Virus record (IMG/VR): IMGVR_UViG_3300037010_000866
Location: 1 to 40,517 of that record
DNA length: 40,517 nt
Reading direction: 5' to 3' (one strand)
Source: a virus
Positions 2,904 through 39,260 of this stretch are shown here, piece after piece (within the stretch, counting starts at the first letter, position 1; every line of letters begins with the position of its first letter). The position numbers and the translations under genes are program-made. Below the pieces are notes generated by a model. The model searched no databases, had not been told where the DNA came from, and worked only from the letters and a program-made list of their open reading frames with translations.

Positions 2904-3218
2904 TTAATCCCCTGAGTCAATTGTATAGTTGTCGCCACATTGACTGCAAGTGTATTTTGTAAGGCAGTTGCCAACGGTTTGTGCTGTATATGTGTGGGTG
3001 CATCCGGTGCCATCGGCTTTAGCAGCTACATGGCCCTGTGCTCGGGAAAACATGCCGCCCGCTCCACAATTTCTACAGCCTACCGTATCGTCACTGAAAT
3101 CATATCCAGCGACAACACTTTTATATTTCTTTTGTTCTTCGGTAGCCAATTGTTTACCTGTGCCGTTGCATTTCGGACACTCGACTCGACCGATAGGAAG
3201 TGCTGTATAAATTTTCAT
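2904..3218 (-). CDS. Zinc-ribbon protein with DnaJ-like cysteine motifs, 104 aa
   Basis: Three paired-cysteine motifs are visible: CPKCNGTGK near residue 14, CRNCGAGG near residue 48, and CSQCGDNY near residue 91, with C73 between them. The CxxCxGxG pattern is that of the DnaJ central zinc domain, but there is no J domain and the length is a quarter of DnaJ. A zinc-binding nucleic-acid or protein-interaction role is an inference. It starts inside the stop of 3215-3418 (ATGA). Confidence 0.7.
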   Translation of the reverse strand: MKIYTALPIGRVECPKCNGTGKQLATEEQKKYKSVVAGYDFSDDTVGCRNCGAGGMFSRAQGHVAAKADGTGCTHTYTAQTVGNCLTKYTCSQCGDNYTIDSGD

Positions 3219-3418
3219 GATAAATTCATTTCAACTGTAATATCCATATCATACCCGTCGTGACCAACAAGTGCATCACGAACATATTGTGCATCCAACC
3301 CTGCATTAAACCATACAGTATCAATCACATTGTTGTGTCTATTTACAACATTCCACGCTTGTTGTTTCACTATGCTCTGTTGCGCAAAGATTTGGTGATG
3401 TTTTTGTTTGGTTGTCAT
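3215..3418 (-). CDS. Hypothetical protein, 67 aa
   Basis: Gln- and Asn-rich small protein (KHHQIFAQQSIVKQQAW) with an acidic C-terminus. ATG 3418 is preceded by AGGAG and by promoter 3448-3476. Co-transcribed and probably translationally coupled with the zinc-ribbon gene downstream. No family recognised. Confidence 0.7.
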   Translation of the reverse strand: MTTKQKHHQIFAQQSIVKQQAWNVVNRHNNVIDTVWFNAGLDAQYVRDALVGHDGYDMDITVEMNLS

Positions 3419-3447
3419 TTTGTGCTCCTGTTATTTAATATGTCATA

Positions 3448-3476
3448 ACTATAGCATGGCCTAGAACCCATGTCAA
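3448..3476 (-). promoter_or_regulatory. Sigma-70 promoter
   Basis: TTGACA-17-TATAGT, driving 3215-3418 and 2904-3218. Confidence 0.8.
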
Positions 3477-3578
3477 CATTTAATTACATTTATTTTTGCA
3501 CCTCGTGACGAGTGATCCGAGCAGCGAGCGGATCGCGAGATATTGCCCAACCGACCCAAATAAAATTTAGCCTAGCTT

Positions 3579-3639
3579 GGCGAAACTCTATGTTGAAAGC
3601 CTGTGTTGAAAGCCTATGGTGAAACTCTATGATGAAACG
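3579..3639. repeat. Four short iteron-like direct repeats
   Basis: On the minus strand four units of about 13-15 nt follow each other: ATAGAGTTTCACC, ATAGGCTTTCAACAC, AGGCTTTCAAC, ATAGAGTTTCGCC. The array starts within the end of the helicase fragment and lies in the 3477-3626 stretch, which holds no other gene that I can see. A protein-binding array or a by-product of the rearrangement are both possible. Confidence 0.5.
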
Positions 3640-3740
3640 ATGTCAATATAATCGATAATCGTTAGCATGGTTTTCGGTTGTCGAATGCCTCGACCGATAG
3701 ATTGGTAGAAATTAGTATCGCTACCATCGATCCACATCAT
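3627..3740 (-). pseudogene. C-terminal fragment of an SF2 helicase, 37 codons
   Basis: Read from ATG 3740, the frame contains FYQSIGRGIR followed by LTIIDYID. QSIGRGIR fits helicase superfamily 2 motif VI (QxxGRxxR), and the hydrophobic IIDYID is the strand that usually follows it in UvsW/DEAD-type helicases. The frame stays open upstream to about 3795 (with CGTSADDMM) inside the next gene, but no helicase core is present. I read it as a relic of a deleted helicase gene; a short expressed peptide cannot be excluded. Confidence 0.6.
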
Positions 3741-3741
3741 A

Positions 3742-3966
3742 TCATCTGCCGATGTTCCACACCTTGTCGGATACTTGTGCGAAGGTTACATTAAATTTTA
3801 ATCCAATAAGACATGCTTCTTCGGATGTGCAATCAACATCAATAAATCGAATAGGAAAATTATTTGCCCATCCTTGGCTAGCAATTGCATAATTCTGATC
3901 TATAATATATTTCCTTAAATTATAAAATAGATTGTTTGTTACACTTGCGATAATTCTATACTTCAT
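3742..3966 (-). CDS. Small hypothetical protein, 74 aa
   Basis: Ends with FIDVDCTSEEACLIGLKF, one of several small proteins here that finish with a beta strand, then S/T-E-x-A and a short Leu/Ile-Lys helix (compare 26980-27174 and 34350-34610). The last 50 bp overlap, in another frame, the open reading frame of the helicase fragment, so the gene may have been appended to or carved from that locus. Tail gene of the operon that starts at 6634. Confidence 0.65.
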   Translation of the reverse strand: MKYRIIASVTNNLFYNLRKYIIDQNYAIASQGWANNFPIRFIDVDCTSEEACLIGLKFNVTFAQVSDKVWNIGR

Positions 3967-3968
3967 TC

Positions 3969-4325
3969 TTACACCATCGCCCGTGTTAGTTTTAGTTCGC
4001 CCGTTATATTACTATACTCCGGGCAGTTCACTAATATTAATTTTATATTAGTTTTAAGTTTCATCAGTATTATTTCTTCAGCTGATAACACACAGAAAAT
4101 AATATCGTATTCGCCAAACGGTAGACGCAGCTGAACTTTGTCGACACCCGGGTTTACCGAATCAAGTGCTGCATAAAATTCTTCATGATGGCTCTCCCAT
4201 AGAAAAACTTTATAGACTTGATGATAGTCTTCTCGTTTTACGTGAGGGAAAGATTTGCCAATATAACCACATAAGAATTCGGCATTATCTGTATCATAAT
4301 CATTCGGTGATCGATAGTCTGCCAT
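3969..4325 (-). CDS. Hypothetical protein, 118 aa
   Basis: Acidic N-terminus (YRSPNDYDTDNAEFLCGYIGK) and a hydrophobic C-terminal half with VLSAEEIILMKLKTNIKL, again the strand plus S-A-E-E plus I-x-LK signature of the small-paralog group. Starts at ATG 4325, 2 nt gap to the next gene. Function unknown. Confidence 0.7.
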   Translation of the reverse strand: MADYRSPNDYDTDNAEFLCGYIGKSFPHVKREDYHQVYKVFLWESHHEEFYAALDSVNPGVDKVQLRLPFGEYDIIFCVLSAEEIILMKLKTNIKLILVNCPEYSNITGELKLTRAMV

Positions 4326-4355
4326 AGGATTCTTATCTAGAATTCTGAATCTGAT

Positions 4356-6472: not shown

Positions 6473-6634
6473 TTACAATCCGTTTAAGGTAAATTTGCTA
6501 AGTGCTTCACGCGCATCTGGGTAGTTATCTGACGCAACAGATCTTTCCAATACTTCGTAATTACTCGCCCACTCCGAATAAGGCTGTGACCACTTAATTG
6601 TATAAGTAGATGATTGTAATTTTTTAGGATCCAT
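6473..6634 (-). CDS. Small hypothetical protein, 53 aa
   Basis: MDPKKLQSSTYTIKWSQPYS, then EWASNYEVLERSVAS and a short helix. ATG 6634 has GGAG 8 nt upstream and the promoter 6664-6692 in front; a large frame in the same place on this strand runs through the promoter and is rejected. First gene of the operon that runs to 3742. Confidence 0.65.
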   Translation of the reverse strand: MDPKKLQSSTYTIKWSQPYSEWASNYEVLERSVASDNYPDAREALSKFTLNGL

Positions 6635-6663
6635 GTTCGACTCCAGTTATTTAATATATACAT

Positions 6664-6692
6664 ATTATATAAGGAAAATAAAAAGATGTCAA
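6664..6692 (-). promoter_or_regulatory. Sigma-70 promoter
   Basis: TTGACA-17-TATAAT. The whole promoter and 5' leader is nearly identical to that at 15303-15331. It heads the longest operon here (13 genes, 6634 to 3627). Confidence 0.9.
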
Positions 6693-6700
6693 CAGGATAA

Positions 6701-6708: not shown

Positions 6709-6767
6709 AGTGTAGTTCGCGAGATTGGCGTCTCCAACTACTCTATCATTTATAAGGAATGTCAGCA

Positions 6768-7430
6768 ATGTATTTATATTACGTCTATGCGTATCTACGC
6801 AAATCAGATAACACACCATATTATATCGGAAAAGGGAAGGACGATCGAATACATGGAAAACATTCTATTGCTATTCCTGCCGATCCGAATCGAATTGTTT
6901 TTCTCGAAACTAACCTGAGCGAACTCGGTGCTTTTGCTATCGAACGCAGGATGATTAAATGGTATGGAAGAAAAGATATTAAGACCGGAATTCTTCGAAA
7001 TAGAACAGACGGAGGCGAAGGTGCCGCCGGTGCAGTCTTTACACTTGAACACCGTGCAAAGATAGGAGAAAAAAGTAAGAATCGTTCCCCCGAAACTAAA
7101 CAAAAATTAAGTATAGCAAGATCTCGTCGTATCATCACGGACGAGACTAAACAGAAAATTTCTGATACACTAAAGGGTCGGCCACTCGGCGACGAAACTA
7201 AAGAAAAGATGCGTGTTGCCCGAACCGGTAAACAACATTCCGAAGAAACAAAAGATAAAATTGCAGCATCGTGGCCACGACCACCTGATTCCGCCGAAAC
7301 ACGTGAGAAAAAACGACTCGGAGCTTTACTACGCGGGCCTGTATCAGAAGAATCGAAAAATAAGATGCGCGCCAGTCGTCAAATTACAGAATTAGCAAAG
7401 AAGGCTGCCTTATTAGAGCAATCCCTTTAA
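6768..7430 (+). CDS. GIY-YIG homing endonuclease with NUMOD3 repeats, 220 aa
   Basis: N-terminal nuclease: YYVYAYLR then TPYYIGKGK with the GIY-YIG-type spacing, and a conserved basic helix [11 protein letters not shown]. After about residue 95 come tandem NUMOD3 DNA-binding repeats of the form (S/D)EETK.K...(S/A)R.G (four or more copies), ending in an Arg-rich tail. ATG 6768 with AAGGA upstream is preferred over the ATG three codons earlier. It stands alone on the plus strand between two minus operons, typical of a mobile free-standing nuclease. Its end overlaps the next gene by 18 bp. Confidence 0.85.
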
Positions 7431-10862: not shown

Positions 10863-11096
10863 TTATAATAAGATTATAAAATCTGCATCATCTGTTGCTT
10901 TAATCCAACGTGACGATTTATCATTTTGATCTTTACCAACAGGGCAAACAAACAACCAAGGGCCTTTCTTAGATGGCGAAAAAAGAACGACATCGGTTTC
11001 AGCCAATACAGTCCATTCGTGCCCTTGCTCGCGCACACGATTCTTGCCCTTTTGTGATACGCCTTTTAGCTGAATTGTTTTACCAAGGAATGTCAT
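10863..11096 (-). CDS. Conserved phage hypothetical protein, 77 aa
   Basis: MTFLGKTIQLKGVSQKGKNR, then EWTVLAETDVVLFSP and PWLFVCPVGKDQNDKSSRWI; a small beta-barrel-like protein of the kind found in many phages. ATG 11096. It overlaps the end of the paralog at 11080-11475 by 17 bp. Function unknown. Confidence 0.7.
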   Translation of the reverse strand: MTFLGKTIQLKGVSQKGKNRVREQGHEWTVLAETDVVLFSPSKKGPWLFVCPVGKDQNDKSSRWIKATDDADFIILL

Positions 11097-11475
11097 AGTG
11101 TAGTGTTCTCCGTTCGTTATCTAATATTTTACATGCTGGTAATAGTAACTTAGCCCGTTCATCGCCAAATGCAGCAAGTATTGCTAACTCACCTGGGTCC
11201 GACTCTAACATGTATGCACAGTCATCAAATAATAACAATGCTAATAATGCAAACCAGGCAGGCGACCAATGATTTCCTAAATTGAATTTTTCGAATGCTA
11301 AAGATTCCCATGAGCCGTTGCGTATGATATCACATCGAATTTTATCATGTAGATCAAACGCAAATATACGATCTCCCGGAAAATGCGCATCGGCCCAAGC
11401 CCCTCGGTTTTTAGCTAAGGCTAATATCCTATCAATATGTCTTGCATTTGGTAAATGTTCCCATGCAGTAGTCAC
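11080..11475 (-). CDS. Paralogous family protein (copy 2 of 7), 131 aa
   Basis: Same family as 442-852: fixed N-terminus MTTAWEHLPNARHIDRILAL and fixed C-terminus FDDCAYMLESDPGELAILAA followed by LLLPACKI. The middle is unrelated to the other copies (AWADAHFPGDRIFAFDL...). Starts at GTG 11475, overlapping the upstream stop by GTGA. Confidence 0.8.
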   Translation of the reverse strand: MTTAWEHLPNARHIDRILALAKNRGAWADAHFPGDRIFAFDLHDKIRCDIIRNGSWESLAFEKFNLGNHWSPAWFALLALLLFDDCAYMLESDPGELAILAAFGDERAKLLLPACKILDNERRTLHYDIPW

Positions 11476-11654
11476 GTTACTTCCTTAACTTCATTTGTCA
11501 ACAGTTCAATTGTCCAAGTGAGCCACATTGGTCGAACGGTTACATAAGCACCATCCACATGTGTTACAATACCGTTTCGATTCGGTCTATGTCGTAAGTG
11601 AAAGATATCCTGACGTAGGATCTTTACTTTACTTCCAACTTTAATTTTGCACAT
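11472..11654 (-). CDS. Small KOW/SH3-like protein, 60 aa
   Basis: MCKIKVGSKVKILRQDIF, then NGIVTHVDGAYVTVRPMW: spacing typical of a KOW or SH3-like barrel, with GIVTHVDG as the turn. Such domains bind RNA or proteins, but the fit is by pattern only. ATG 11654 with AAGGA upstream. Its start overlaps the end of 11624-12037 by 31 bp. Confidence 0.55.
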   Translation of the reverse strand: MCKIKVGSKVKILRQDIFHLRHRPNRNGIVTHVDGAYVTVRPMWLTWTIELLTNEVKEVT

Positions 11655-12037
11655 TCTAATTCCTTAATTTTGTGAAAGGCAATACATGCTGGCAATAACA
11701 TTATTGCTCTAGGATCGCCGAATGCAGCAAGTATCTTTAATTCGCCGACTTCCGAATCCATCATATATGCACACTCGTCATATGCAATCAAACATGTTAC
11801 TACATCTATTCCTGCATCATAACCCATTGACCATGCTGTTTCACGTGCAACTGATGCGATTACTCGCCGTTCGAGTGGTACAAGAACTCGCCGTGTGATA
11901 GCTCTTGCTACTTTTCGTTTATTTTGTTCTTCACGTGTTCGTGACTTTTGTTTCCATTGATGCCGATACTTTCGCAACGACTCTAACACACGCTCGATAT
12001 GTATTGCGTTCGGTAAGTCATCCCACGGCGTGCTCAT
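11624..12037 (-). CDS. Paralogous family protein (copy 3 of 7), 137 aa
   Basis: Fixed ends MSTPWDDLPNAIHIERVLESL and YDECAYMMDSEVGELKILAA with RAIMLLPACIAFHKIK. The middle is unusually Arg/Lys-rich (SRTREEQNKRKVARAITRR), with WSMGYDAG. ATGA overlap with 12034-12423. Confidence 0.8.
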   Translation of the reverse strand: MSTPWDDLPNAIHIERVLESLRKYRHQWKQKSRTREEQNKRKVARAITRRVLVPLERRVIASVARETAWSMGYDAGIDVVTCLIAYDECAYMMDSEVGELKILAAFGDPRAIMLLPACIAFHKIKELECAKLKLEVK

Positions 12038-12886: not shown

Positions 12887-12946
12887 ATAGTATCCGTCAC
12901 GACACGCCAATGTCTACGGACTCTAACACTAAGAGGAGTGTCAGCA

Positions 12947-13636
12947 ATGTATTTAGTCAATAAATATACCACGTGGTATAATAACATAATATCAAATGCC
13001 AGTAACAGGATAATAACTGGATATACTGAGACACATCACATTATTCCAAAATGTTTCGGTGGTACTAACGATACTATAAATTTAGTAATACTAACAGCAA
13101 AAGAACACTTTATATGTCACTTACTATTGACTAAAATGGTAACTGGTCGACAGAAATATCAAATGGTACATGCTGCTAGATTCCTATGCAAACATCCTGC
13201 CCACACCGAATATAAGATTAGTAGTCGATCATACGAATACTTAAGAAAAGAATCTGCAATAGCTCAACAGAATAAGATTATAACAGACGAATTTCGACAG
13301 AAAATGTCGAATATACGAATAGGAAAACCCTTATCGGACGAACATAGGAAAAAGATTGGGGACATACATCGTGGCAAGGTAGATTCGGATGACACTCGTA
13401 AGAAGAAATCTAGGTCGGCCACGGGGCGAAGACATACAGAAGAATCTAAATTAAAGATGTCTATAATTCAGTCAACTATTCCACATCCGAAATGGTCCGA
13501 AGAAACACGCGCTAAGATGAAGGATCGACCATCACAAGTCGGATGGGTGTGGTGGTGTAACGGAGTTGATCAAAAACGACAAAAAGATTGTCCCGGCGAT
13601 GATTGGTATAGACAAAGTCACAAAAAGAAACTATAA
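12947..13636 (+). CDS. HNH homing endonuclease, 229 aa
   Basis: N-terminus MYLVNKYTTWYNNIIS, then ETHHIIPKCFGGTNDTINLV with AKEHFICHLLL: a standard phage HNH homing endonuclease core. NUMOD3-type repeats follow (EFRQKMSNIRIGKPLSDEHR, with further copies), and a short basic, Trp-rich tail. ATG 12947 with AGGAG 8 nt upstream. Same N-terminus as 33662 (MYLCNKYTTWYNNII). Lone plus-strand gene. Confidence 0.85.
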   Translation: MYLVNKYTTWYNNIISNASNRIITGYTETHHIIPKCFGGTNDTINLVILTAKEHFICHLLLTKMVTGRQKYQMVHAARFLCKHPAHTEYKISSRSYEYLRKESAIAQQNKIITDEFRQKMSNIRIGKPLSDEHRKKIGDIHRGKVDSDDTRKKKSRSATGRRHTEESKLKMSIIQSTIPHPKWSEETRAKMKDRPSQVGWVWWCNGVDQKRQKDCPGDDWYRQSHKKKL

Positions 13637-14884: not shown

Positions 14885-15273
14885 TTTGATTCCTTAGTTT
14901 TGTTTAACCGTTTCCATGATGCCCAAAATGCTGGCCCAATATCCATAGAAACATAATCGTCTCCTTGAAGACCTTGTTCAGAATAATGCACATTTTGGAC
15001 AGCTTTTATGCTGAAACCAAATTCACGTAAAGACTTTTTTAATTCCTTTAACCATAGTTTGTCAGTATAGATTAAACCGTAGCCCGGAACATTCCAAGAG
15101 TTCGGAGTAAAACCGTGGGAAATAAAATGGGCCCTCAATTCGCCATTGAACGGATCCTCTGGATAATATGTTTTACTTGTGTAACCAATAGAAAGTTTAA
15201 CAATTTCGATTGATCGAGCTTCTTCGGACCACAGTCCTTTTCCGTTAGTGTGCGTAAGAAATGAGACATCCAT
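14881..15273 (-). CDS. Hypothetical protein, 130 aa
   Basis: Mixed protein with IVKLSIGYTSKTYYPEDPFN and AFWASWKRLNKTKESK at the end. ATG 15273 follows a promoter-leader cassette (15303-15331) almost identical to that before 6473-6634. First gene of the operon that runs to 13685. Function unknown. Confidence 0.65.
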   Translation of the reverse strand: MDVSFLTHTNGKGLWSEEARSIEIVKLSIGYTSKTYYPEDPFNGELRAHFISHGFTPNSWNVPGYGLIYTDKLWLKELKKSLREFGFSIKAVQNVHYSEQGLQGDDYVSMDIGPAFWASWKRLNKTKESK

Positions 15274-15302
15274 GTTCGACTCCAGTTATTTAATATACAC
15301 AT

Positions 15303-15331
15303 ATTATATAAGGAAAATAAAAAGATGTCAA
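15303..15331 (-). promoter_or_regulatory. Sigma-70 promoter
   Basis: TTGACA-17-TATAAT. Copy of the cassette at 6664-6692, including the leader up to the ATG. Confidence 0.9.
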
Positions 15332-15337
15332 CAGGAA

Positions 15338-17941: not shown

Positions 17942-17970
17942 ATTATATGCGGTTAGATGGTAGTTGTCAA
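17942..17970 (-). promoter_or_regulatory. Sigma-70 promoter, leaderless transcript
   Basis: TTGACA-17-TATAAT; the ATG of the 17513-17935 gene begins 6 bp downstream of TATAAT. Drives that gene and DNA ligase. Confidence 0.85.
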
Positions 17971-18362
17971 GCAACTTCTTTAATTGAATGAAGGGCAATA
18001 CAAGCTGGTAACAACAAGACAGCCTTTTCATCACCAAAAGCAGCAATTATTTTCAGTTCGCCGATTTCTGATTCGATCATGTATGCGCAATCATCATATG
18101 CAATTAGACACAAGATCGCATCCCTTGCCGCACTCCTTGCCGCACTCCATGCCGCACTCCATGCCGCATCCCTTGCCGCACTCCATTCCGTATCCCGTGT
18201 CGCATCCCTTGCCGTATCCCTTGCCGCATCCCAAGCCGCACCCCTTGCTGCATTCCATGTCGCACTCCATTCCGCACTCCATTGCTCTGGATGTGTTTTT
18301 AGCGATGCCAATATTCGGTCGATGTGTATTGCATTTGGTAAGTGAGACCATTCGGTTGTCAT
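17967..18362 (-). CDS. Paralogous family protein with Ala/Trp/Arg repeat (copy 4 of 7), 131 aa
   Basis: Fixed ends MTTEWSHLPNAIHIDRILAS and DDCAYMIESEIGELKIIAAF with LLLPACIALHSIKEV. The middle (about residues 30-85) is a tandem repeat of four-residue units such as AWSA, ARDA, ARDT. The repeat array occupies 18119-18291. Repeat expansion seems to have replaced the variable middle found in the other copies. ATGA overlap with 18359-18565. Confidence 0.8.
   Translation of the reverse strand: MTTEWSHLPNAIHIDRILASLKTHPEQWSAEWSATWNAARGAAWDAARDTARDATRDTEWSAARDAAWSAAWSAARSAARDAILCLIAYDDCAYMIESEIGELKIIAAFGDEKAVLLLPACIALHSIKEVA
18119..18291. repeat. 12-bp tandem repeat array
   Basis: About 14 copies of GCCGCAYTCCWT and variants on the plus strand, coding four residues per unit (AWSA/ARDA) on the minus strand. 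All three antisense frames are open through it, so long frames on the other strand here are artefacts. Confidence 0.85.
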
Positions 18363-21553: not shown

Positions 21554-21582
21554 TATTATATGACATCTATGCTGTAGTGTCA
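21554..21582 (-). promoter_or_regulatory. Sigma-70 promoter
   Basis: TTGACA-17-TATAAT for the 21191-21505 gene. Closely related to the promoter at 417-445. It overlaps the end of the paralog 21567-21947. Confidence 0.9.
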
Positions 21583-21947
21583 ACGGTTGTTTTAATTAAA
21601 TCAAATGTAATACAGCCAGGCAACAATAGCGATGCTCTATCATCGCCGAGTGCCGAAAGTATCCTTAATTCACTGACATCTGAATTCAACATATATGCAC
21701 AATCGTCATATGCAATAAGAGCTAGAATTGTTCTATATGCAGCCATCGGAGTAGACATGAATACTTCATAACTTAACCCATTTAACAATTGACAGGCATT
21801 TCTTGCTGCCAACCTACCTCGTAGTTGTTCCTGTACAGTCATCGGTAAGTTGTATGAAAACCTCCAATGCTCCGGGTGTGCTCTAACAGAAGCCAACACC
21901 CGATCAATATGTGCTGCATTTGCTGAATGATCATATTTTAGTTTCAT
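21567..21947 (-). CDS. Paralogous family protein (copy 5 of 7), 126 aa
   Basis: More divergent at the N-terminus (MKLKYDHSANAAHIDRVLAS) but with the family C-terminus YDDCAYMLNSDVSELRILSA and RASLLLPGCITFDLIK. Middle unrelated (VQEQLRGRLAARNACQLLNG). ATGA overlap with the SleB gene upstream. Confidence 0.8.
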   Translation of the reverse strand: MKLKYDHSANAAHIDRVLASVRAHPEHWRFSYNLPMTVQEQLRGRLAARNACQLLNGLSYEVFMSTPMAAYRTILALIAYDDCAYMLNSDVSELRILSALGDDRASLLLPGCITFDLIKTTVDTTA

Positions 21948-27174: not shown

Positions 27175-27932
27175 TTAGTCTTAACTAATGTCAACATGTC
27201 GGGTATTCTGGTATGTGCATTCCTACTACCGAGTAATATGAATATGCGTTGCCCTAGTGACGAGTTTATGATCATTACTAGGCACCCACCGGCCGGGACA
27301 GTAAATCCTGTTTTAGATAACACTATACTGAGTGTAGATGTGAGTGGGTTCGTATTACGAATTTTAACTGGTTTTCTACCAAGAATAATTTCTGCGTCAG
27401 ATCTACTAGATATATCTGTTATAACGGGGTTGAGTGATGCAACCATAAGTAATTTTAATAAGTCACGTGCAGTGCTGACATTACCGATATCTAATCCAGT
27501 CGGTTCTTTATATTGCGTATTAGTCATACCCAATTCTGTAGCTTTATTATTCATACTCTCAACACAATTCGGCAAATTGATACATAATATCTGTGCCGCA
27601 AAATTATCCGATCTGATAAGAGCAAGCGTTAATAATTCTCGTCTTGTCAATGTTTTCGTTGATCTAGGAATTGCACTCTGAACTTGCCTAATGACCGGGA
27701 TTGGTAATGATTCGGTAAGGTCCTGGTCTGCTGCAAGCAACGCTACGAGAAGTTTTGAAATCGATGCGATTGGTCGCACAATATCGCTATTTTGTTCCTT
27801 TAATATTGTACCGTCCTCACTTGCTACTAAGTAGCTCATTGTTATAGGTGGTCGAGATATATTACGATGCGGTTTGCTGTAACAATTAGTTGTTAGCGTA
27901 ATAGAAATTAATAATAATAAAAATTTATTCAT
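27171..27932 (-). CDS. Serine-type DD-peptidase, PBP7-like, 253 aa
   Basis: Penicillin-binding peptidase motifs in order: SISK (S57-K60), SDN (S108-N110), KTG (K207-G209). Length and motif spacing match S11-type endopeptidases such as PbpG (PBP7). The N-terminus MNKFLLLLISITLTTNCYSK is a signal peptide or a possible lipobox ending in Cys17. Would cut peptide cross-links in peptidoglycan in the periplasm. Very uncommon in phages, so it may help entry, lysis, or lateral transfer of a host gene. Same operon as the GIY-YIG gene. Confidence 0.85.
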   Translation of the reverse strand: MNKFLLLLISITLTTNCYSKPHRNISRPPITMSYLVASEDGTILKEQNSDIVRPIASISKLLVALLAADQDLTESLPIPVIRQVQSAIPRSTKTLTRRELLTLALIRSDNFAAQILCINLPNCVESMNNKATELGMTNTQYKEPTGLDIGNVSTARDLLKLLMVASLNPVITDISSRSDAEIILGRKPVKIRNTNPLTSTLSIVLSKTGFTVPAGGCLVMIINSSLGQRIFILLGSRNAHTRIPDMLTLVKTK

Positions 27933-28615
27933 AAAAATTCCCAGCCAATATACAAATCAGATTTGCATCTAAGTCTTACTGTATCTTTTTTCAAATTATG
28001 AGATCTCCCTGCTTCTGCACAAGAAATAAATTCGCCATTAGGTGTTTTAACTGGCCGCATTGCTGCTAAGGGCTTAGTCGGAATTCCTCTAGTTTTATGA
28101 GTCCGAGGAATACCTTTCTGTGACAACGACATTTTCTGCTTTGATTCATCCGAATGTCGATAAGGGCTTGCTTCTTTCGTTTTTCTTATCTTCTCTTTAA
28201 CTTCTATTGTAGATTTCTTTCCTTTTCGAGCCACAGCACTCTTTTTCCTGTGTTCTTCGGATTTTGGTTTACCTTTGGAAGCTATCGACATTTTCTTTTT
28301 TGATTCTTCTGACAAAATCCTGCCGCTACACCCTTCTCCACCGTCTGTTCTGTTATTTAATATACCTGTACCTAAATCCTTGCGGCCATACCACTCAATC
28401 ATCCGACGCTCTATAGCAAATGCACCAATTTCAGTAAGGTTAGCTTCAAGTATAATTATATATCTACGATCTTTAGGCTGTGTAAAATGTTTATTAAACA
28501 TTCTCTTCTTCGTGCCTTTACCTATATAGTACGGTGTGCCAGCTTTTGCAGTGATAGAATCTGTATCACGCATATACGCATAGACATAAAATTCTAATGT
28601 AGGTAGTGTCTTCAT
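27929..28615 (-). CDS. GIY-YIG homing endonuclease with NUMOD3, 228 aa
   Basis: EFYVYAYMRDTDSITA then [15 protein letters not shown] and AIERRMIEWYG; almost the same core as 6768-7430, so both likely descend from one mobile gene. NUMOD3 repeats (SEESKKKMSIASKGKPKSEE and copies), then a C-terminal NUMOD1-like PNGEFISCAEAGRSHN. ATG 28615 6 bp after TATAAT: leaderless. Confidence 0.85.
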   Translation of the reverse strand: MKTLPTLEFYVYAYMRDTDSITAKAGTPYYIGKGTKKRMFNKHFTQPKDRRYIIILEANLTEIGAFAIERRMIEWYGRKDLGTGILNNRTDGGEGCSGRILSEESKKKMSIASKGKPKSEEHRKKSAVARKGKKSTIEVKEKIRKTKEASPYRHSDESKQKMSLSQKGIPRTHKTRGIPTKPLAAMRPVKTPNGEFISCAEAGRSHNLKKDTVRLRCKSDLYIGWEFL

Positions 28616-33023: not shown

Positions 33024-33611
33024 TTAAGAAGCATAGCCTTTGGGTTGTGGTATGACCTTTACCAATTCATCCGGCCATCCGATATAATCCTTCCAAGCTT
33101 CGTCACGGATATGTATCGGCAACGTCTTTCTCTTAGCTAAAATTTCATAGTAAGATGGCTTGTGTGGTTTCTTCTTAGGCACAATAGACTTGTCAGCACC
33201 TTTCTCACTATTACAATCCTGACAAGAGGTACATACATTCAGCCAATTAGTTTTACCACCGTGGGACCGGGGAATTACATGGTCAAGAGTTAAAGCAGCA
33301 AGTTTTACCTTACCATTCAATTCCTTACATTTCCAAGTTGACTGGAGTTGACAAGTAAAATCGTCACGAAGGTAAACATTATTGCGACTGTATTTTAATG
33401 TCTTGTTCCACTTAGCTTGTTTAGCCATGATAATTATTGACGGTACCTTAATTTCTAGATACTGCGATCTAATCGACCAGTCGTCATAATCTTTAAGGAC
33501 AATTGCTTTACTTAGAAAGACTAGACGCATTGCCACTTGCCAAGAAACTATTGACAATGGGATATGCGAAAGTGGTTGGCCATCTGCATTTAATAATAAA
33601 ACGTCGGACAT
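33024..33611 (-). CDS. HNH endonuclease, 195 aa
   Basis: N-terminus MSDVLLLNADGQPLSHIPLS and WQVAMRLVFLSKAIV, then a zinc-bound HNH core: LTLDHVIPRSHGGKTNWLNV with CTSCQDCNSEKGA. The layout matches a common cyanobacterial/phage HNH family. DH, N and the CxxC plus C of the zinc site are visible. ATG 33611, terminator 32984-33014 after the gene. Confidence 0.8.
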   Translation of the reverse strand: MSDVLLLNADGQPLSHIPLSIVSWQVAMRLVFLSKAIVLKDYDDWSIRSQYLEIKVPSIIIMAKQAKWNKTLKYSRNNVYLRDDFTCQLQSTWKCKELNGKVKLAALTLDHVIPRSHGGKTNWLNVCTSCQDCNSEKGADKSIVPKKKPHKPSYYEILAKRKTLPIHIRDEAWKDYIGWPDELVKVIPQPKGYAS

Positions 33612-36549: not shown

Positions 36550-36993
36550 CTATCGTTGTTTCATTATTTTTTGTTGCTCACGCTGCCAATCCCGATCCTT
36601 CTCAGACTCACGCTTGTCATGCTGTTTTTTGCCTTTTGCGAGCCCTATTTGACACTTTATACGACCATTTACATAGTGTAAGTTAAGCGGCACTAAGGCA
36701 TAGCCTGCTCTTTCGACCTTGCCAATCAACTTTTTAATCTCAGCAGCATGTAGCAATAATTTACGTGTGCGTGTCGGAGTTGTCGTAACATGAGTGGAGG
36801 TAGTTGATAGAGCGGTAATATGTGCGCCAAATAGAAAGATTTCGCCACCCTTGATAATTACATAGGCTTCCTTGATCTGTGCATTACCCGCACGGATCGC
36901 CTTCACTTCCCACCCCTCTAACATCACCCCAGCTTCATACTGCTCTTCTATGAAGTAGTCGTGGAAGGCTTTTCTGTTATCTGTAATACTCAT
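36550..36993 (-). CDS. smpB: SmpB, SsrA-binding protein, 147 aa
   Basis: N-terminal [20 protein letters not shown] and [19 protein letters not shown], then [56 protein letters not shown] and the tail [13 protein letters not shown] plus a charged C-terminal helix. Each block matches bacterial SmpB, which carries tmRNA onto stalled ribosomes, with the length a little short of the usual 155-160. All functional blocks are present, so it may be active. No tmRNA was seen in this window, so it may use the host's or one elsewhere. Confidence 0.9.
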
Positions 36994-37169
36994 TTTATTA
37001 CCTTAAAATTTTCCATTATAAATTCTTCACTTACTAATTTTCCCACTTTCATATCTTCTGTATTATTTATGAAGTAGTACTGGATTTCGTGTTGTATGTA
37101 ACCTTGTCCGACCTTAACTATAACCGACGGGTGTTTAATCGATGTTAGCAGCGTATTGTATTTCAGCAC
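36990..37169 (-). CDS. Small hypothetical protein, 59 aa
   Basis: GTG 37169 inside the end of 37135-37551, ATGA overlap with SmpB at the end. [20 protein letters not shown], then [20 protein letters not shown] and [19 protein letters not shown]: a beta-rich start and a helical end. Just below common length cutoffs. Coupling to SmpB suggests co-expression. Confidence 0.55.
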
Positions 37170-37551
37170 GATTATACCATCCCTTTCCTTTAATTGATTC
37201 GAACGCGATTACAGCTGGCAATAATAGTATCGCCCTACCGTTACCAAATGCAGCAAGTATCTTTAATTCACCTACCTCTGATCCCATCATATATCCGCAA
37301 TCATCATACGCACACAGGCATGTTAATGCATCACTGGACCAATAGTTCATTTTAAGTAAATACCGTGCTGTCGAGCATATTTCGAACCTACCACTGTTCA
37401 TTGTCGATTCATATGCTTCTCGCCATGTTATTATAAATGCTGCATCATATCGATCAGGTTGCTCAAAATCAACATCTGGATATGCTTTTGCCAGAGCAAC
37501 TACCCGATCAATATGTATTGCATTTGGTAAGTGAGCCCATGCGGTTGTCAT
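37135..37551 (-). CDS. Paralogous family protein (copy 6 of 7), 138 aa
   Basis: Fixed ends MTTAWAHLPNAIHIDRVVAL and YDDCGYMMGSEVGELKILAA with RAILLLPAVIAFESIK; the usual Cys of the terminal PACI is Val here. Middle unrelated (FEQPDRYDAAFIITWREAYE). Tandem with copy 7: the DNA of the first 50 bp is nearly identical in both. Confidence 0.8.
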   Translation of the reverse strand: MTTAWAHLPNAIHIDRVVALAKAYPDVDFEQPDRYDAAFIITWREAYESTMNSGRFEICSTARYLLKMNYWSSDALTCLCAYDDCGYMMGSEVGELKILAAFGNGRAILLLPAVIAFESIKGKGWYNRAEIQYAANID

Positions 37552-37552
37552 G

Positions 37553-37957
37553 CTAACTCATTTCTTCGCTAAAAACAATACATGCTTGTAACAGACACAT
37601 AGCTTTCGTATCACCTAGTATAGCAAGTAATTTAATCTCATCAATTGCTGAATCTAATATATATGCACAATCGTCGTATGCGATAAAACATGAAATTGCA
37701 TCCCACGCACTATACCACGATATGCTATTCCCGCGTGTTTGTTGTATCGACGCTAATGCTGCATTCCACGCCATAGATTGTATCAACTCACGCGACATAA
37801 TTTGTATCTCAGCTTTCATGATTTGCCATGCTGCAAATACTGCCTTTTCATCTGCCGTAAATACTGATTTTGACCATATCATCGGATTTGACACTAGTGA
37901 TGCTAACACCCGATCAATATGTATTGCATTTGGTAAGTGAGCCCACGCGGTTGTCAT
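37553..37957 (-). CDS. Paralogous family protein (copy 7 of 7), 134 aa
   Basis: Fixed ends MTTAWAHLPNAIHIDRVLAS and YDDCAYILDSAIDEIKLLAI with KAMCLLQACIVF. Middle unrelated to copy 6 but also rich in Trp, Ala and Gln. Both ends of the coding DNA are almost the same as in copy 6, which suggests duplication followed by replacement of the middle. Confidence 0.8.
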   Translation of the reverse strand: MTTAWAHLPNAIHIDRVLASLVSNPMIWSKSVFTADEKAVFAAWQIMKAEIQIMSRELIQSMAWNAALASIQQTRGNSISWYSAWDAISCFIAYDDCAYILDSAIDEIKLLAILGDTKAMCLLQACIVFSEEMS

Positions 37958-38202: not shown

Positions 38203-38230
38203 AGTATAGCACAATTATATAAAAAGTCAA
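38203..38230 (-). promoter_or_regulatory. Sigma-70 promoter, leaderless transcript
   Basis: TTGACT-16-TATACT; ATG of 37954-38196 6 bp downstream. Drives the two paralogs, the 59-aa gene, SmpB and probably 36342-36539. Confidence 0.8.
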
Positions 38231-39207
38231 TGCGATAATAATTCTGTGTATTCATTGGTCTTTTTGTAAATCATAAATTTGAATTTATAGCCCTGTGCAA
38301 GGCATGCATCGCGTTTCATATTATGCCTTGGTACATTTTTATTATATGTCCACTCGGATTTTACTTCTATAATCAAATTATCCTTTGCAATATAAAAATC
38401 CGGAAAATAATAATGTTTCTTTCCATTATCGTCATAATAAGTGATTCTGGGTATTTCTGCAGTTTTTGTGCTAATTTCTTTTTCCGTATATTCTTTCAAC
38501 ATATCATCTAATGCTTTATTTTCCCACCCCTGTAAAAATATGATCGCTCCGGATGGCATAATATACTGCTTAGATTTATATCCATTCTTAACTTTTTTGG
38601 CATGTATTTCGGGATTCTGTGATGCATTCTCTACGCCGAATCGTTCGATCATAGTGTCTGTTCTTTTATTTTGCACATCCTTATTTGATAATGGATTTTC
38701 GGTACCATACCTGTCAATATTTGTGATAGTTGCCTTTGCTAATCTGTCAACTGCATTGTCTGTATTTTTCTTAGAAACAGATGCAGCAATTTCCGGAATT
38801 TTTAATTGATGATCTACTCCATATTTTTCCAAAAAGGATTCTTTCTTTTTATCCTTTACTGATTGTAATGAATTTGTAGATTCGACACCGTGATTTAATA
38901 AATTAGTTACTTTGGTTTTAGCAGTTCGTATCGTTGCTGTCAGCGTTGTAGTCTTTTTTAATTGTGCTCTTACTGTAGTAGTCTTAGACACATTGTCGAC
39001 ACCATACTTTTCTATGTTAGTTGCTTGGCGTTTTTCTAAAATTGTATTCATATCCTTATTAGCATAAGTGATTGCAAATTTAGCTTTGGTCGAAATTGAT
39101 TTACAGTCTTTACAGCAATATAACATATAATTACCATATTTATTTTTCGATGTAATATTGTTGCATATTGTGTTTTCACATTTGTGTGATTTAATTAATC
39201 TTGGCAT
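38227..39207 (-). CDS. PD-(D/E)XK endonuclease with C4 zinc finger and repeats, 326 aa
   Basis: N-terminal zinc finger with CENTIC and YCCKDCKS. The middle carries several repeats of the form (K/R)YGV(D/E)N(V/A)S..., probably DNA-contacting. The C-terminal nuclease has FPDFYIAKDNLIIEVKSEW, with PD...ExK as in PD-(D/E)XK nucleases. This composition fits a free-standing homing endonuclease of the Vsr-like or PD-(D/E)XK kind. ATG 39207 with GGAGAG upstream. Confidence 0.75.
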   Translation of the reverse strand: MPRLIKSHKCENTICNNITSKNKYGNYMLYCCKDCKSISTKAKFAITYANKDMNTILEKRQATNIEKYGVDNVSKTTTVRAQLKKTTTLTATIRTAKTKVTNLLNHGVESTNSLQSVKDKKKESFLEKYGVDHQLKIPEIAASVSKKNTDNAVDRLAKATITNIDRYGTENPLSNKDVQNKRTDTMIERFGVENASQNPEIHAKKVKNGYKSKQYIMPSGAIIFLQGWENKALDDMLKEYTEKEISTKTAEIPRITYYDDNGKKHYYFPDFYIAKDNLIIEVKSEWTYNKNVPRHNMKRDACLAQGYKFKFMIYKKTNEYTELLSH

Positions 39208-39231
39208 AATTTGCGCTCTCCATGTAATATA

Positions 39232-39260
39232 CATATAGCATGTTTATCGTGTAAAGTCAA
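39232..39260 (-). promoter_or_regulatory. Sigma-70 promoter
   Basis: TTGACT-17-TATATG for the 38227-39207 gene. Confidence 0.7.

Follow-up and report, generated by a model that had tools for sequence, protein, structure and literature searches.

Does a 37-codon frame that carries a helicase-like motif in a phage contig descend from a helicase gene, or is the likeness fortuitous? The frame occupies positions 3740 to 3627 on the minus strand of a 40,517-base virus fragment, the whole of which was analysed and is called the window here. Its translation is MMWIDGSDTNFYQSIGRGIRQPKTMLTIIDYIDIVSS, in which QSIGRGIR (3681–3704, minus strand) resembles motif VI, the arginine-finger motif, of SF2 helicases, as judged by alignments and by a broad SF2 profile (E 0.0054). 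The motif is followed by IIDYID (3642–3659, minus strand), which aligns, two residues early, with the D-I-x-D strand that UvsW-type helicases have after motif VI. An earlier note had taken the pair as the trace of a lost or moved helicase gene at the end of an operon.

The frame and its surroundings

The window is part of the genome of a jumbo phage, a relative of Pseudomonas phage PA5oct; the MoxR-like ATPase encoded in it shares 55% identity with the PA5oct protein and up to 90% with those of environmental jumbo phages, the longest of which spans 385 kb. A second contig of the same phage (G001, 32.8 kb) has 23 differences from the window in 32.8 kb, none of them between 3627 and 3785, and a third (G002) overlaps the window and extends about 6.5 kb beyond its end. 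IMG samples 3300035661 and 3300036715 are the sources of contigs of this phage. The closest relative is G003 (210 kb, incomplete), in which much of the gene content is retained.

The frame is open back to 3785, where it begins after a TAA, giving 52 codons; it encodes ...YQSIGRGIRQPKTMLTIIDYIDIVSS. Stops are present on the plus strand at 3627–3740. Immediately downstream lies a 13-bp tandem array of 4.4 copies (3582–3638), the final unit of which contains the last codons and the stop of the frame; a search for TGAAA at 13-bp spacing found no counterpart of the array in five large relatives. Beyond it, a promoter-like TTGACA-17-TATAGT (3448–3476, minus strand; 11 of 12 consensus matches) serves the next gene (67 codons, 3215–3418). 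Since a strong promoter for the next gene follows the array, placing the fragment at the end of an operon beside a repeat array is a reasonable description. Upstream is a 74-codon ORF of unknown family by family searches (3742–3966, minus strand), whose TGA falls one base ahead of an ATG in the fragment frame (TGA-T-ATG). At a threshold of 1e-5 none of the five large relatives matched the ORFs at 3742–4355, and more conserved genes stand on the flanks, so the fragment appears to sit in a variable stretch of small genes that fits a region of gene turnover.

The coding signal of the frame is closer to that of the window's genes than to that of off-frame stretches. Its codon score is 0.193 per codon; gene windows (27 genes) give 0.246 ± 0.129 and open off-frame windows −0.016 ± 0.117. 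The fragment outscores 32% of the gene windows, and 2.1% of the open off-frame windows reach its score, which by simple arithmetic favours coding about fourfold. At the three codon positions the GC content is 0.38, 0.38 and 0.43, unlike the 0.50, 0.38 and 0.36 of the genes. No Shine–Dalgarno sequence precedes the fragment at the usual distance, unlike the 67-, 142- and 119-codon genes.

Elsewhere in the window, an SmpB gene (36550–36993, minus strand; Pfam PF01668, E 1.9e-57) has similar genes in G007 and G020, and ARAGORN found no tmRNA in the window. Seven minus-strand paralogues (442–852, 11080–11475, 11624–12037, 17967–18362, 21567–21947, 37135–37551 and 37553–37957) share a C-terminal block around AYDDCAYM..SE..ELKILAAFGD, and most begin M(T/S)TxW..LPNAxHIxR; two of the seven were searched against Pfam, with no match, and one overlaps a 12/24-bp tandem repeat (18117–18285). 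Sixteen of the 23 differences from G001 fall at 11756–12008, within the paralogue at 11624–12037, and most of the sixteen are synonymous; the G002 protein agrees with that of the window. The cluster suggests that a related phage exchanged sequence with this one. Two copies of a 69-bp sequence that differ at one position lie at 6629–6697 and 15268–15336, and copies of up to 63 bp, 86–94% identical, lie upstream of small genes at 394–434, 1926–1988 and 2341–2402, where they look like a cassette of promoter and ribosome-binding site.

Resemblance to helicase motif VI

A strict regular expression for motif VI matched only true helicases and the fragment frame in 1.64 Mb, and nothing in reversed sequence. 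We searched 31,301 reading frames in 1.92 Mb of the phage's relatives with a profile of the motif VI region from a broad set of SF2 (UvsW-type) helicases. The fragment was the top non-helicase, with 17.3 bits (E 0.0054), and the next non-helicase reached 10.0 bits (E 1.0). A diverse-only SF2 profile that excluded jumbo-phage helicases gave 16.3 bits (E 0.010; next non-helicase E 0.71) in the same frames. None of 20,000 shuffles of the fragment frame reached its score with any of four profiles. By arithmetic from the broad-profile and shuffle results, about 1e-4 such matches would be expected among the window's 706 frames of at least 30 codons. The broad profile was assembled after the fragment had been seen; E. 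coli K-12 HsdR was intended for it and dropped out, having no motif of the form used.

Narrower profiles were less favourable. One profile, built from 96 jumbo-phage helicase ends, scored the fragment at 10.7 bits, with E 0.44 in a set of 24,276 frames and E 0.57 in the 31,301 frames; it was the top non-helicase in both sets, with runners-up at 10.6 and 10.0 bits in the smaller set and 7.5 bits in the larger. Scores were 12.5 bits (E 0.21) for a jumbo region profile, 11.4 bits (E 0.41, with three unrelated frames scoring higher) for a T4-like-only profile, 8.2 bits (E 4.0) for a RadD-like profile and 5.4 bits (E 27) for a Herelleviridae profile. Among curated libraries, the sole PHROGs match was phrog_16, DNA helicase (E 0.059), and the sole NCBIfam match was EcoAI HsdR (E 0.082, with the 37-residue form only), both presumably at the motif VI region of those models. 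Pfam, PADLOC and PDB returned nothing at E ≤ 10 for the fragment peptide. As a control, 80 other window frames of similar length were sampled from 256 and searched against PHROGs; one matched anything at E ≤ 0.06, a family with no listed function, and none matched a helicase. At this rate about nine of the 706 window frames would match something, so a library match alone is not telling.

The closest likeness is to the UvsW-type SF2 helicases of T4-like and PA5oct-like phages (PHROG 16; EST35_0215 in PA5oct), in which a D-x-x-D strand comes after a motif VI of the form QSIGRxxR. In the fragment, motif VI (QxxGRxxR) is present as QSIGRGIR, and IIDYID aligns with the strand only with a two-residue gap, the loop after motif VI being that much shorter. 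The alignment covers only about 27 residues, includes none of motifs I, II and V, and shows no basic tail following the motif; immediately before motif VI, where motif V would stand, the residues PSHKYPTRCGTSADDMMWIDGSD cannot be aligned with STGI.I. E. coli RadD similarly has GRG-x-R and then a hydrophobic strand ending D-Y (GRGLRLAPGKTDCLILDY), but the RadD-like profile scores just 8.2 bits, and the likeness to HsdR-type motors consists in the NCBIfam match. The motif VI region of the phage T5 helicase D10, EQLAGRVQR, is unlike that of the fragment. D10 is described as an SF2, UvsW-related branch-migration helicase with an arginine-finger motif VI, and replacement of the motif VI arginine is reported to have nearly abolished its ATPase activity (PMC5180179). 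We conclude that the resemblance to motif VI probably exceeds chance, though it rests on only about 27 residues, and that the broad-profile result is its main support.

Search for a helicase core and a parent gene

No helicase core accompanies the fragment. In 2,221 frames from the window and G002, a full-length SF2 profile gave the fragment 12.1 bits and everything else at most 2.3 bits; neither motif I (Walker A, GxGKT) nor motif II (DExH) was found in these frames, and no frameshifted core was detected. The observation of QSIGRGIR and IIDYID in a minus-strand frame without a core is thus borne out.

A parent gene was sought among the relatives. A PF00271 match was present in 6 of 12 large records. 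PA5oct, G007, G014, G016 and G020 carry a single UvsW-type helicase apiece, about 490 residues long, with ends of the form ...VIQSIGRGxRxAPxKDxVxVxD...; the helicase of G033 is divergent. Among the five large relatives, four have one such helicase, and none was found in the 210 kb of G003. The relatives' helicase end (...FVRVIQSIGRGIRVAPDKDFVNVYDVCSNCKFSKRH...) has only QSIGRGIR in common with the fragment, which extends less far both before and after the motif; comparison of the fragment with the resident helicases at the DNA level showed no similarity. On account of the differing flanks of QSIGRGIR and the lack of DNA similarity, we rejected descent from the resident helicase of the lineage.

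Wider searches returned no parent either. A direct search for the frame found G001 alone among 35 records, identical at the frame. DNA-pattern scans of IMG/VR recovered this twin contig each time and no homologue; one pattern match (L114) has no ORF of at least 60 codons bearing the peptide, an extended-motif match (L195) is a Mor-like regulator and evidently a look-alike, and two further pattern scans gave the twin only. Across 84,980 prokaryote genomes in GTDB, the DNA pattern had no matches and no homologue was found; a peptide search gave 41 stretches, of which the one that passed tblastn is a 36-codon Flavobacterium frame and not a helicase. tblastn gave four matches in phages at E 5–10, of which the one examined is a Pelagibacter phage hypothetical protein beside tail-tube genes, and one match in plasmids at E 9; blastn of 3480–3760 in phages gave none. 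Among the titles listed for papers on UvsW motif VI, on a PA5oct helicase and on phage gene remnants, none deals with the fragment. A full helicase with a matching end was thus absent from the relatives, IMG/VR, GTDB, the window and G002. Loss or relocation of a helicase gene is the foremost candidate explanation, but a parent did not appear in the relatives, IMG/VR or GTDB; one could lie in the remainder of the phage's own genome, beyond the window, G001 and G002.

Origin of the fragment

Several other origins have to be weighed. ARAGORN calls a tRNA-Gly (anticodon ACC) at 3691–3774 on the plus strand, of which the fragment would be the antisense, and it makes no calls in 1.93 Mb of reversed sequence; the Rfam tRNA model, however, is silent in 3400–4100 even at E ≤ 10, the acceptor stem contains mismatches and bacteria are not known to use an ACC anticodon for glycine. 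We rejected the tRNA on these grounds and give it practically no chance. It is very unlikely that the fragment is the terminal part of a helicase gene that was split, with the core located at another place in the phage and the parts either joined in trans or kept apart by an inserted intron, intein or homing nuclease. The phage does carry several NUMOD3-type proteins, and its genome is known here only from the window and the overlapping and twin contigs. Against this, Rfam found no group I intron in the window, no other helicase motif occurs in the window or G002, and no homing-nuclease gene adjoins the fragment, on which grounds a split by intron or nuclease was rejected. The earlier suggestion of a split by a homing nuclease thus finds no support: the nearest candidate (6759–7430) is about 3 kb away on the plus strand, past several other ORFs. 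Moreover, the C-terminal part is an uninterrupted frame in every relative in which a helicase was found, and the fragment is without the stretch of roughly 35 residues present after the motif in those helicases. The window's mobile-nuclease-like genes (NUMOD3, HNH, DUF7487/TnsA-like) lie at 6759–7430, 12938–13636, 27929–28615, 33024–33611 and 38227–39234.

We consider it improbable that the frame is a working micro-gene whose 37-residue product has its own role and depends for its translation on coupling with the 74-codon gene. The coupled stop and start, the gene-like codon score and the identity of the frame in the second contig would fit such a gene, but no relative or collection searched has a homologue, two near-identical contigs of one phage are uninformative on selection, and a Shine–Dalgarno sequence at the usual distance is missing. 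It is very doubtful that this protein acts on a phage or host helicase as a regulator or separate subunit with a stand-alone arginine-finger motif. A substantial possibility, short of even, is that chance produced the likeness to motif VI in a small frame at the operon's end that has no function or is an orphan. With many motifs open to notice, some string of this kind would be met by chance. Which profile is used decides how good the match looks, curated libraries give E 0.059–0.082 or nothing, a pattern of the same length met the unrelated Mor-like regulator and a shorter one the stretch in L114, no search gave a homologue, and a ribosome-binding site like that of some neighbouring genes is lacking. 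Chance accounts less well for the fragment's place at the top of the non-helicases among 31,301 frames with the broad profile, for the failure of all 20,000 shuffles to score as well, for the lack of helicase matches among the 80 control frames and for the gene-like codon score.

The most economical account, and the most likely one although chance is nearly as likely, is that the fragment is what is left of an SF2 helicase gene in a stretch undergoing gene turnover; we give it about an even chance. For it speak the broad-profile and shuffle results, the gene-like codon score, the setting in a stretch that fits gene turnover, and the contrast between the control frames, none of which matched a PHROGs helicase, and the fragment, whose PHROGs and NCBIfam matches are a helicase and an HsdR motor; against it stand the failure to find a parent in the relatives, IMG/VR and GTDB, the short alignment with its shortened loop and no motif V, the GC values by codon position, the look-alike Mor-like regulator, and the shift of significance with the profile (E 0.0054 for the broad one, 0.21–27 for narrow ones). 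The scrap would comprise about 27–40 codons from the second RecA-like domain of a broadly UvsW-type gene and would include motif VI together with the following strand. It would have stayed behind at the operon's 3′ end, in a place where small genes are gained and lost, and recombination would have brought the end of the 74-codon gene directly upstream, with the 13-bp array bounding the scrap downstream. The idea that the helicase was replaced by small genes fits this anatomy, although we infer the replacement itself. Translation, if any, would proceed by re-initiation after the upstream TGA and yield a short by-product; alone, without motifs I, II and V, the fragment would be unable to bind or hydrolyse ATP as a helicase. 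Ordinary gene remnants occur in large phage genomes as short pieces of genes at operon ends in variable regions; they differ from the present case in that no parent sequence has been identified for the fragment.

That the same 27-residue string is significant or not according to the profile used shows how far such a motif can be trusted. If the fragment is a helicase scrap, it would tell little about helicases, and it would be a further instance of the turnover that small-gene regions undergo in PA5oct-like jumbo phages.
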